Assembly (NCBI GenBank): GCA_026003755.1
Contig: BPHV01000005.1
Span: 124,001 to 188,000 of the forward strand
From: Candidatus Roseilinea sp.
GTDB taxonomy: Bacteria > Chloroflexota > Anaerolineae > J036 > Brachytrichaceae
Direction of reading: 5' to 3'
DNA length: 64,000 bases
Positions 24,267 to 50,404 of the stretch are shown one piece after another. The notes beneath the pieces were generated by a model. It made no database searches, was not told the origin of the DNA, and saw only the letters and a program-made list of their open reading frames with translations. Numbering within the stretch: position 1 is the first letter of the stretch; the number at the start of each line of letters is the position of its first letter. The position numbers and the translations under genes were made by a program.

Positions 24267-24296
24267 CAAACCAAACCAAACCAAACCAAACCAAAC
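24267..24296. repeat. Pentanucleotide microsatellite (CAAAC)6
   Basis: Six perfect tandem CAAAC units upstream of clpC, embedded in otherwise mixed sequence. On the minus strand this is (GTTTG)6. Such short tandem tracts can vary in unit number; its distance from the clpC start (about 95 bases) leaves room for an effect on expression, which is speculative. Confidence 0.9.
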
Positions 24297-46455: not shown

Positions 46456-49400
46456 ATGAGTGACAAACCGAATATCGTCGCCATCGTCGGCCTCGAGCAC
46501 TTCAACAAAAGCGTGTGGGACGAGGTAAAGGCCGACCTGGCCGGCGAGGCCAACCTCGTCCAGTTCACCGAATGGGAGTTGGAGTCGCGTTCGCCGGAGG
46601 CGGCGCGCGCCATTCGCGACGCCGACTGCCTGTTCGTCAGCATGATCAACTTCAAGGATCAGGCGGATTGGCTGCGCGCGCAGGTCGAGCAATCGCGCGC
46701 AAGCGTCGTCTTCGCCTACGAGTCCATGCCTGAAGTGATGGCGTTGAACCGCGTCGGCGATTACGTGGTCGCCGGCAAGTCCGGCGGCAAGGGTGGCATG
46801 CCCGAGCCGGTGAAGAAGATCGCGCGCATGCTGGTGCACGGGCGCGACGAAGACACGCTCTATGGCTATACCAAGCTGATGAAGCTGATGCAGACCATGA
46901 TGCGCTTCATGCCGGCCAAGGCGCGCGACTTCAAGAACTGGATGCAGGTGAACATTTACTGGAACCAGCCGCTCGCCGTCAACGTGAGCAGCATGTTCAA
47001 GTTCATCCTGCGCGAGTACTTCAACCAGCCGATCGCGGTGCCGCCGGTGGTCGAGGTGCCGATGATGGGGCTGTATCACCCCGACGCCCCTCGCTTCTTC
47101 AAAGACATCAAGGCCTATCGCGACTGGCGGAAGCGTCGAGACAAGGCGACCAGGCGACCGGGTGACCAAGGGACAGGCAGACAAGGCGAGAGGGAGATAC
47201 GACGATCGCTAACCATCCATCATCAATCATCGGTTACCGATCATCACCCCGCCGTGGCGCTGCTCTTCTTCCGCAAGCATCTGATGCAGGATCGCGGCTA
47301 CATAGACGAGATGATCCGGGCGATGGAAGGCGCCGGCTTGGACGTGTTGCCCATCTTCGTCGCGGGCGTCGAAGGCCACGTCGTCGTGCGCGATTGGCTG
47401 ACCCACGAGCGAGTTGATGCGCTGGTCAGCACGATCGGCTTTGCGCTGGTGGGCGGGCCGGCCGGCTCGACCTCGCCCGGCGCGCATCGCGACGCAGCGG
47501 TCGAAATCCTGGAGCGCCTGGACGCGCCCTACATCGTCGCACAGCCGCTCTACGTGCAAGACTTCGTCTCTTGGCAAAAGATCGGCGTCGGGCCGATGCA
47601 GGCCGCAGCCACGTACGCCCTGCCGGAGATGGACGGCGCGGTGAACCCGGTCATCCTCGGCGCGATCAACAACGGCCGCTTTCAGACCGCGCCGGACCGC
47701 CTCCAGCGGCTGACCACGCTGGTGCGCCGTTGGGCGACGTTGCGCCATACGCCTAACCGCGATAAGCGGATCGCTTTTATCGTCTACGACTATCCGCCCG
47801 GCCTGGGCAAGAAGGCGACGGCTGCGCTGCTGGATGTGCCTCGCTCATTGCTCAATATCCTGCGGCGCTTGCAGGCCGAGGGTTACGACGTCGGCCAATT
47901 GCCGGAGACGCCGGAGGCGCTGTTGCAGCAACTGGAAGCAGCGACCACCTTGCGCGCCGACGGATTGGCCGTGACGCAGGAGCAATTCAAGCAGTGGACG
48001 ACGCCGCGCGAGCGTGAGCGCGTGGAGGAGCGCTGGGGGCCGTGGCCGGGCGACATCGCGCCGGCAGGACGCGACGCCGTGTTCATCGGCGGGCTGCGAT
48101 TGGGCAACATCTACATCGGCGTGCAGCCGCGCTTCGGCGTCACCGGCGACCCGATGCGCTTGCTGTTCGACAAGGAGAACACCCCGCATCACCAATATCT
48201 GGCGTTCTATCGCTGGATCAGCCGGGGCTTCGGCGCGCACGCCCTGGTGCACGTCGGCATGCACGGCTCGGCGGAGTGGATGCCCGGCTTGCAGCTCGGC
48301 ATGACGCGCAGTTGCTGGCCGGACGCGCTGCTGGGCGAGCTACCGCAGCTCTATCTCTACCCGATGAACAACCCCAGCGAGGCGAACATCGCCAAACGCC
48401 GCGGCTACGCCGTAATGGTCTCCCACGCCGTGCCGCCGATGGCGCGCGCCGGCCTATACAAGGAGCTGGCCGCGCTCAAGGATATGCTGCAAGACTATCG
48501 CGAGCGGCAGATCGAACGGCGCGGCCAAACTGAGGAAGCCCTGGAAGAGGCCGTGCTGAGCAAAGTCGCGCTGGCCAATCTGGATGCCGACTGCCCGCGC
48601 CTGCAAGGAGAACCGTTTCCCGACTACGCTGCGCGGCTCTACGCCTATCTGCGCGACCTAGAGCAGCGCTTGATCACGGCTTCGCTGCACGTCTTCGGCG
48701 AGGCCGCGCCAACGGAATCGCAGATCGTCACGGTGACCGAGGCGCTGAAGGTGCGCGGCGGCCATCGCGCGCTGGCCGATGTGATGCTGAGAGAGACGTT
48801 GGGTGATGCCGCGCCGGCGACATCGTACGCCGAGCTGGCGGCGCTGGCGCGACGCGGCGACCCCGAAGCGCTGCGTGCCAGGGAACGGGTGGATGAGGCG
48901 TGCCGGGCCTTCGTTGAATGCGCTGTGTTCCGCGGCGAATCGCCGGCGTCGGCGCTGCATCAGGCGACTCACAACGGCACGTCCATCGCCGCCGACGACG
49001 CTGAGGCGCTGATGGAGATGGCGCAGGCCGGGCGGATGATGGCACGCATGCTCGGCGACAACCGCGCCGAACTCGAGGCCGTGGTGCGCGGCCTCGACGG
49101 GCGTTACATCCCGCCTGCGCCCGGCGGCGACTTGATCCGCGATGGCCTAAGTGTGTTGCCCACCGGTCGCAACATCCACGCGATTGACCCGTGGCGCATC
49201 CCCAGCGAGCTAGCCTATGCGCGCGGCGCAAAAATCGCCGAAGCCTTGCTGGAGAAGCACCTCGCCGAGAACGCCGGCCAATATCCAGAGACGATCGCGC
49301 AGGTGCTCTGGGGCCTGGACACGATCAAGACCAAAGGCGAGGCCATCGGCACGGTGCTGCGCCTAATCGGCGCGCGGCCGCATCACGACGGCCAGGGCAA

Positions 49401-50352
49401 GATCAGCCACTATGAACTCATCCCGCTGGAGGAGCTGGGCCGGCCGCGCATTGACGTGCTGATGAACCTCAGCCCGATCTTCCGCGACACCTTCGAGCTG
49501 CTCATGGATCACCTCGACCGGCTGGTGAAGGACGCCGCGCGCGCCGATGAGCCGGTTGAGATGAACTTCATCAAGAAGCACGTTGAAGCGGCGATGCGCG
49601 ATGGCATGACGTTTGAGCAGGCGACTGCGCGCTTGTTCACCCAGCCGCCGGGGCAATACGGCACCTACGTGGATGACATGGTGGAGGACTCGGCCTGGCA
49701 GTCGCAGGATGACCTCGACCAGTTGTTCGTGCGCCGCAACGCCTACGCCTATGGCGGCGGGCGCAACGGCCAGCATGCGCCAGAGGTCTTGCAGCGCATG
49801 CTCAGCACCGTTGGCCGCGTCGTTCAGGAGATTGACTCGGTGGAGTTCGGCGTGGCCGACATAGACCACTACTTCTCGTCGTCCGGCGCACTGCACCTGG
49901 CCGCGCGCAAGCGCAGCCGCGCGCCGGTGAAGCTGAATTACATCGAGAGCTACACCGCCGAGACGCGCATTGATGACCTGGATCGGGTGCTGCGCGCTGA
50001 GTATCGCACCAAGCTGCTCAATCCGCGCTGGTACGAGGGCATGTTGCACCACGGCCACAGCGGCGCGGCCGAGATCAGCAATCGCTTCACCTACCTGCTG
50101 GGCTGGGATGCGGTGAGCGGCTGCGTGGACGATTGGATTTACACCGATGCGGCGAAGACCTATGCGCTCGACCCGGTCATGCGCGAACGCCTGACACAAG
50201 CCAACCCGCAGGCGATGCGCAACATCGTGGGGCGGCTGCTGGAGGCCAGCGGACGCGGCTTGTGGAAAGCGGACGACGACACGGTCGAACAACTCAAAGC
50301 GCTGTATGCCGATCTGGAAGACCGGCTGGAGGGTGTGGGTTACAACCGATGA
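46456..50352 (+). CDS. bchH: Magnesium chelatase subunit H, with in-frame insertion
   Basis: The product has 1298 residues. It starts IVAIVGLEHFNKSVWDEVKA and includes characteristic segments FVFAYESMPEVMALNRVGDY, KSGGKGGMPEPVKKIARML, VALLFFRKHLMQDRG, GVQPRFGVTGDPMRLLFDK, HVGMHGSAEWMPG, YPMNNPSEANIAKRRGYA and GRNIHAIDPWRIPSELA. BchH binds protoporphyrin IX and is the catalytic subunit; the conserved HGSAEWMPG and related His/Glu regions are intact. Codons for about residues 229-266 (47140-47253) are not chelatase-like and appear inserted. It is followed by bchC after 70 bases. BchH together with BchD and BchI forms the complete enzyme in this cluster. Confidence 0.96.
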   Translation: MSDKPNIVAIVGLEHFNKSVWDEVKADLAGEANLVQFTEWELESRSPEAARAIRDADCLFVSMINFKDQADWLRAQVEQSRASVVFAYESMPEVMALNRVGDYVVAGKSGGKGGMPEPVKKIARMLVHGRDEDTLYGYTKLMKLMQTMMRFMPAKARDFKNWMQVNIYWNQPLAVNVSSMFKFILREYFNQPIAVPPVVEVPMMGLYHPDAPRFFKDIKAYRDWRKRRDKATRRPGDQGTGRQGEREIRRSLTIHHQSSVTDHHPAVALLFFRKHLMQDRGYIDEMIRAMEGAGLDVLPIFVAGVEGHVVVRDWLTHERVDALVSTIGFALVGGPAGSTSPGAHRDAAVEILERLDAPYIVAQPLYVQDFVSWQKIGVGPMQAAATYALPEMDGAVNPVILGAINNGRFQTAPDRLQRLTTLVRRWATLRHTPNRDKRIAFIVYDYPPGLGKKATAALLDVPRSLLNILRRLQAEGYDVGQLPETPEALLQQLEAATTLRADGLAVTQEQFKQWTTPRERERVEERWGPWPGDIAPAGRDAVFIGGLRLGNIYIGVQPRFGVTGDPMRLLFDKENTPHHQYLAFYRWISRGFGAHALVHVGMHGSAEWMPGLQLGMTRSCWPDALLGELPQLYLYPMNNPSEANIAKRRGYAVMVSHAVPPMARAGLYKELAALKDMLQDYRERQIERRGQTEEALEEAVLSKVALANLDADCPRLQGEPFPDYAARLYAYLRDLEQRLITASLHVFGEAAPTESQIVTVTEALKVRGGHRALADVMLRETLGDAAPATSYAELAALARRGDPEALRARERVDEACRAFVECAVFRGESPASALHQATHNGTSIAADDAEALMEMAQAGRMMARMLGDNRAELEAVVRGLDGRYIPPAPGGDLIRDGLSVLPTGRNIHAIDPWRIPSELAYARGAKIAEALLEKHLAENAGQYPETIAQVLWGLDTIKTKGEAIGTVLRLIGARPHHDGQGKISHYELIPLEELGRPRIDVLMNLSPIFRDTFELLMDHLDRLVKDAARADEPVEMNFIKKHVEAAMRDGMTFEQATARLFTQPPGQYGTYVDDMVEDSAWQSQDDLDQLFVRRNAYAYGGGRNGQHAPEVLQRMLSTVGRVVQEIDSVEFGVADIDHYFSSSGALHLAARKRSRAPVKLNYIESYTAETRIDDLDRVLRAEYRTKLLNPRWYEGMLHHGHSGAAEISNRFTYLLGWDAVSGCVDDWIYTDAAKTYALDPVMRERLTQANPQAMRNIVGRLLEASGRGLWKADDDTVEQLKALYADLEDRLEGVGYNR
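47140..47253 (+). repeat. Simple-repeat-like in-frame insertion within bchH
   Basis: This 114-base stretch encodes about 38 Arg/Gly/Gln/His/Ser-rich residues between DWRKR and VALLFF, which are adjacent or nearly so in usual BchH sequences. It contains the direct repeat GACAAGGCGA at 47140-47149 and 47180-47189 and several GCGACC/GGTGACC variants, then a CATC-rich tail with the palindrome ATCGGT-T-ACCGAT. It resembles intergenic heptamer-type repeats rather than coding DNA, yet keeps the frame. Confidence 0.65.
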
Positions 50353-50368
50353 TGGCCTCTTCCCACTC

Positions 50369-50404
50369 CCGACTCACGAGTCGGAAATGGGGAGTAGGGA
50401 GTAG
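50369..50404. repeat. Hairpin and GGAGTAG tandem repeat in bchH-bchC spacer
   Basis: CCGACT (50369-50374) pairs with AGTCGG (50379-50384) around a four-base loop, and GGAGTAG is repeated twice at 50391-50404. The spacer is otherwise 69 bases long. The heptamer style is like the insertion inside bchH and suggests that this genome carries mobile or expanding short repeats. Confidence 0.5.

Follow-up and report, generated by a model that had tools for sequence, protein, structure and literature searches.

The window, by which we mean the whole 64-kb stretch of DNA analysed here, comes from the hot-spring bacterium Candidatus Roseilinea (Chloroflexota) and carries a bchH gene whose frame of 1298 codons is intact throughout, including a repetitive insert (Table 1). 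The product, the catalytic subunit H of magnesium chelatase, scores 1558 bits against the NCBIfam BchH model, for which the cut-off is 829, and is 98% identical to BchH of the closest named match, Roseilinea sp. NK_OTU-006. The insert, whose boundaries are approximate (the start around 47140, at codon D229, the end around 47245), joins two unrelated families of units: octamer-like units in the order GACAAGGC, GACCAGGC, GACCGGGT, GACCAAGG, GACAGGCA, GACAAGGC, GAGAGGGA, and AATCATC-like heptamers in the order AACCATC, CATCATC, AATCATC, GGTTACC, GATCATC. Tandem Repeats Finder calls a period of 8 at 47140-47189, and according to a lag scan the insert is the sole period-7 or period-8 array of the window (the triplet-shuffled control gave 0 arrays, at a stricter threshold than the real scan). 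The first-pass annotation had placed repeat DNA at this position in bchH, with the frame open through it, and both points hold. Elsewhere in the window there is a perfect array of six CAAAC pentamers (24267-24296).

Table 1. Features of the bchH region (positions in the window)
Feature	Position	Strand	Evidence
bchH	46456..50352	+	NCBIfam TIGR02025; Pfam CobN-Mg_chel and DUF3479
In-frame composite repeat insert, BchH residues 229 to ~263	47140..47245	+	Alignment with 8 congeners and outgroups; AlphaFold pLDDT
Octamer tract, ~7 GACNRGGN-like units	47140..47197	+	Tandem Repeats Finder, period 8; family matches in own and sister genomes
Heptamer tract, 5 units	47211..47245	+	Sequence; family matches; cleaner units and 21-nt expansion in G004
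bchH-bchC spacer inverted-repeat element, NACTCCC/GGGAGTN heptamers	50356..50404	+	Sequence, fold, family matches

A BLAST search of the own genome revealed no second full copy of the insert, the partial matches being 14-23 bases long with E values of at least 0.69, and no intact donor copy was found. Neither terminal inverted repeats nor a target-site duplication, the hallmarks of a MITE, could be seen by eye in the insert and the aligned relatives, where the ends are undefined without a fresh empty site. The insert was also considered as a single folded RNA element; this was rejected, as positions 47140-47253 fold no better than shuffled sequences (z 0.01), and a small 3' hairpin alone stands out (z -2.75).

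The bchH gene is present in all nine congeneric genomes (G000-G008, G000 being the window's own), with 83-98% identity to that of the window; all genomes compared appear to be metagenome assemblies. The alignment of relatives identifies the linker between KAYRDW and LFFRKH as the inserted part, in agreement with the claim that repeat DNA interrupts an otherwise conserved BchH. This linker comprises 45 aa in G000, G001 and G006 and 52 aa in G004; it comprises 39 aa in G007 and G008 and 23 aa in G005, in all three without a clear repeat, and 32 and 30 aa, without repeats, in the basal congeners G003 and G002. Outgroup linkers, which were counted one residue shorter, have 18-21 aa in other Thermoflexales, 15 in Chlorobi and about 20 in Synechocystis ChlH. 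A recognizable repeat is restricted to four of the nine species (G000, G001, G006 and G004), and it is cleanest in the last two. The insert of G004 exceeds that of G006 by 21 nt, i.e. exactly three heptamers, which is the smallest step that keeps the frame for a 7-nt unit.

In bchH trees calculated without the linker, G002 and G003 fall outside a clade formed by the other seven species, the inner branches of which are weak (support 51-82 in places). The short linker of G005 retains GACAAGGCG at its left end and GTCAACCCT at its right end, and such repeat-like remnants in a nested species suggest a deletion. From these comparisons we infer that the repeat entered bchH in the common ancestor of the seven species and was later lost, the loss in G005, G007 and G008 being argued, in view of the weak inner branches, from the remnants and from parsimony. 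The first-pass annotation regarded a homologous loop in relatives as evidence against a repeat origin; such a loop is indeed present in three species, but rather than refuting that origin it would date the insertion to their common ancestor.

An AlphaFold model of BchH residues 1-523 (alignment of 22 sequences, mean pLDDT only 70) gives pLDDT < 50 to residues 234-261, which lie between a helix (218-232) and a strand (266-272). The model supports a flexible loop in BchH and nothing beyond that; as the loop is also basic, the flexible basic loop anticipated earlier agrees with the prediction. When the partial model was submitted to Foldseek, ChlH came first with low TM-scores, which probably stem from the domain orientation in a partial model of moderate confidence. 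Between G000 and G006, the insert shows dN of 0.137 and dS of 0.110 (dN/dS about 1.2) vs 0.037 and 0.467 (about 0.08) in the remainder of bchH, and its protein-level rate is about 4 times higher. These values suggest that the insert has evolved close to neutrality, with little constraint at the protein level since its capture. Its divergence of about 0.12 per site is below the 0.24 of the third positions of bchH, and the low dS, calculated from few sites, leaves open some conservation or constraint at the DNA level, or recombination.

The units of the insert belong to dispersed families that are abundant in two congeners, which bears out the earlier suggestion that the DNA is of the intergenic type. 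A pattern of three octamers (1 mismatch allowed) has 88 matches in G004, 82 in G006, 6 in G000, 5 in G003, 4 in G001, 3 in G005, 1 in G007 and 0 in both G002 and G008, vs 0-1 for the reversed-pattern controls across genomes; these counts are inflated by overlapping matches and hence refer to matches, not to elements. As a marker for the genome search that the first-pass annotation had recommended, the exact 10-mer GACAAGGCGA is poor (16 matches vs 8 for the reversed control), whereas the three-unit pattern is specific (6 vs 0). The heptamer pattern has 271 matches in G004 and 30 in G006, while its 2 matches in G000 represent no excess over the 4 of the control. The GGAGTAG repeat previously noticed in the bchH-bchC spacer is likewise real, but it belongs to a family other than those of the insert: GGGAGTN has 122 matches in G004, 60 in G006 and 16 in G000, and in the own genome GGGAGTNGGGAGTNG of this family has 16 matches vs 0 for the control. 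The spacer element folds at -24.1 kcal/mol (z -1.0), and a hairpin resembling it is present in G004 and absent from G001, G005, G007 and G008. A further period-8 repeat, GTTGGCAC-like, occurs downstream of bchH in two congeners (L128:8968-9534 and L119:8974-9038). The proposal of a repeat origin was thus right, but that of an active family receives no support for the octamer in the own genome, which has all but lost this family (6 matches in about 4 places) and in which no second full copy of the insert was found. In this genome, the bchH insert is a fossil of families that are still abundant in sister species.

The wider distribution of such arrays was assessed in evenly spaced 20-kb stretches (400 kb of G006, 320 kb of G000 plus the window, and 400 kb of G004), with genes called by a home-made simple codon-pair caller; 86-87% of the sample is coding. 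Tandem periods of 7 and 14 dominate in all three genomes. The strict threshold yields 25 lag-7 arrays in the 400 kb of G006 and 11 in the 320 kb of G000, vs 0 in shuffled sequence, and at a looser threshold the G004 sample contains 74. In G006, 10 of 41 arrays lie fully inside genes (8 of 373 genes) and 26 are intergenic; in G004 the corresponding numbers are 33 of 80 (25 of 326 genes, about 8%) and 38. The own genome has 5 of its 15 period-7 and period-8 arrays in genes (4 of 333 genes), bchH included, and one octamer array is intergenic. Relative to the coding share arrays are thus under-represented in genes, yet they are not excluded from them. A few of the in-gene calls are weak: some arrays are close to the end of the gene, or the called gene is very short; in G006 one array is rich in GC and one gene lacks a Pfam match, and in G000 the call L296 is truncated by the end of the stretch. 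Arrays of unlike units also cluster, like the two tracts in bchH: 10 of 41 in G006 do so, vs 1.2 expected, and 26 of 80 in G004, vs 4.9 expected for any neighbour.

Because arrays of 7- or 8-nt units traverse all three phases, a tandem unit that bears TAA, TAG or TGA stops every frame on that strand. Units with stops on both strands account for none of the G006 in-gene arrays vs 4 of the 26 intergenic ones, and four of the five strand-asymmetric in-gene arrays of G006 have, by consensus, the stop-free orientation. The numbers are small, and such a bias would be expected from selection for open frames; it does not imply targeting.

Other hosts came to light when peptides encoded by the octamers and heptamers were searched against the genus and the long open frames that matched were read. 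In-frame arrays are present in MutS2 (G000, G006), Nnr (G004, G006), GlyQS (G004), an FAD-linked oxidase (G006), PurL and an FtsW-PBP fusion (both in G004 and G006), a RACo-type protein (G004, G007), and, in G004, a penicillin-binding protein and a dihydroorotase-like amidohydrolase. Family searches confirmed most, but not all, of the host genes checked; among those confirmed are GyrA, SMC, DnaG, ArgS, ThrS, ArgG, ArgC, SHMT, GcvT, FtsK, TrpA and BchZ in G004, and GcvT, a PLP enzyme, an E2 acyltransferase and MurE in G006 or G000. At one site in MutS2 the pattern is like that in bchH: the array is long in G006, at about 40 aa, and decayed in G000, while G001 and G004 have at most one unit and no array is present in G002, G003 and G005. 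In MurE of the own genome, a heptamer array (SFSTLNSQFSI) lies within a linker that differs between species, and when Nnr of G006 is aligned to the solved Nnr structure 2AX3, the match falls into two parts with the array between them. A full-length PurL was not found in G000, G001, G002 and G005, so that the PurL insert is not polarized across the genus. Arrays at a similar site in GcvT of G006 and G004 were dropped as same-site evidence, as the two proteins may be paralogues.

Several individual cases deserve separate mention. BchZ of G004 (L353:7127-8686), another bacteriochlorophyll enzyme, has an in-frame AATTCTC heptamer array (DGLSQFSILNSQF). GyrA of G004 (L342:16116-18833) has two adjoining in-frame heptamer arrays of unlike units, which together amount to about 50 extra residues (540-592). 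The apparent ArgC orthologues of G006 (L285:17502-18569) and G004 (L349:13401-14477) carry unlike repeat families at one site. This suggests that the loop is permissive and that its arrays turn over. In G004 an ABC permease and MenA share one frame through a stop-free period-8 array (L351:12138-13838), possibly a gene fusion made by repeat DNA or an artefact of start-site choice. A GNAT acetyltransferase is in one frame with ArgG in G006 (L285:12224-14236) and G004 (L349:7413-9350), with a repeat loop in the GNAT part.

In our opinion it is likely that a composite array of the intergenic type was captured in frame in bchH, as one case of a genus-wide capture of arrays in permissive loops. According to this scenario, a pre-made array of 8-nt and 7-nt units would have been inserted in the ancestor of seven of the nine species. 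Its tolerance would be due to its position in the linker that connects a helix to the strand after it, and to units that are free of stop codons when read on the strand and in the frame concerned. Thereafter the array would have drifted with little constraint on the protein, gaining three heptamers (21 nt) in one species, being cut to a near-ancestral length in another, and turning into ordinary codons in two more. Throughout the genus, arrays of many unit sequences would enter genes repeatedly and persist where they are stop-free, have a length that is a multiple of three, and fall in loops.

It is also conceivable, but in our estimate improbable, that the array was never inserted but arose on the spot, when replication slippage expanded a short duplication that had occurred by chance in a linker that was variable before. 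The linkers of the basal congeners are already somewhat longer, at 30-32 aa, without any repeats, G004 has clearly gained three heptamers, and slippage has been proposed as a source of bacterial heptamer repeats (PMC4679880). However, the insert unites an octamer and a heptamer family whose units recur across the sister genomes, arrays of unlike units cluster far above random placement, and independent slippage is not expected to yield identical units at unrelated loci. Recruitment of the loop for a function, e.g. for docking of BchD/BchI or of the next enzyme of the pathway, with maintenance by selection, appears considerably more remote: its persistence in four species, its basic character and the lower third-position divergence of the insert could be read in this way, but the dN/dS of the insert is about 1, sister species with linkers of 23 or 39 aa keep an otherwise conserved and intact BchH, and similar arrays occur in many unrelated proteins. 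Metagenome assemblies are error-prone at repeats, yet an assembly or sequencing artefact is hardly worth entertaining, as four species, each with a separate assembly, have homologous inserts that have diverged from one another, all of them in frame.

It is tempting to speculate that some activity in Roseilinea disperses arrays of 7-8 nt units, also into coding DNA, and that hundreds of conserved proteins of one species contain loops of translated satellite; we regard this as possible but doubtful. If true, such dispersal would constitute a continuing source of new protein loops. The best-known examples of repeats captured in frame by conserved proteins come from Rickettsia, along with REP elements in a few other bacteria. 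Here the hosts are free-living phototrophs, the repeat DNA is of the simplest kind, and about 8% of the sampled genes are affected in one species (G004), among them those of gyrase, SMC, primase and tRNA synthetases. With nine species at clean, expanded, decayed and deleted stages, the passage of noncoding repeat DNA into protein sequence becomes traceable. The results are also a warning for structural work and annotation, as these loops resemble lineage-specific satellite DNA and not functional domains.

We found no report of heptamer or octamer arrays in Roseilinea in literature mostly outside subscription journals, which is weak evidence of absence, and the word "repeat" does not occur in the Roseilinea genome paper (PMC8446752). 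The closest parallel is provided by the Rickettsia palindromic elements (RPEs), dispersed repeat DNA that interrupts unrelated housekeeping genes without loss of frame and seems to be tolerated there (PMC10969869, PMC3733652). Like them, the Roseilinea arrays are found in frame in bchH, MutS2, MurE, PurL, Nnr, GyrA, SMC, ThrS and other genes. However, an RPE is a palindrome of about 150 bp whose peptide is conserved within its family, whereas the inserts of Roseilinea are tandem arrays of 7- or 8-nt units with many sequences, and the bchH insert has neither an overall palindrome nor an alignable full-length copy in its own genome. Intragenic REP elements (GTAG/CGTC repeats) also lie in frame within genes, in some cases at sites shared by related species (PMC3733652), and resemble the Roseilinea arrays as short repeats read in frame; they are, however, palindromic and often associated with RAYT transposases, while the bchH insert lacks such a palindrome. 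With respect to the unit itself, the arrays resemble the heptanucleotide tandem repeats of bacteria, i.e. the STRR of cyanobacteria, TAACTGA of Beggiatoaceae, GGGAATC of Xanthomonas and Nostoc, and GATAGRA of Chloroflexus aurantiacus, which shares the phylum of Roseilinea (PMC4679880, PMC4692102, PMC6749651), in that units of seven nucleotides are arranged head to tail at many loci. The published reports centre on intergenic arrays, whereas in Roseilinea a large share lies in frame inside conserved coding sequence, and many families of units coexist side by side.
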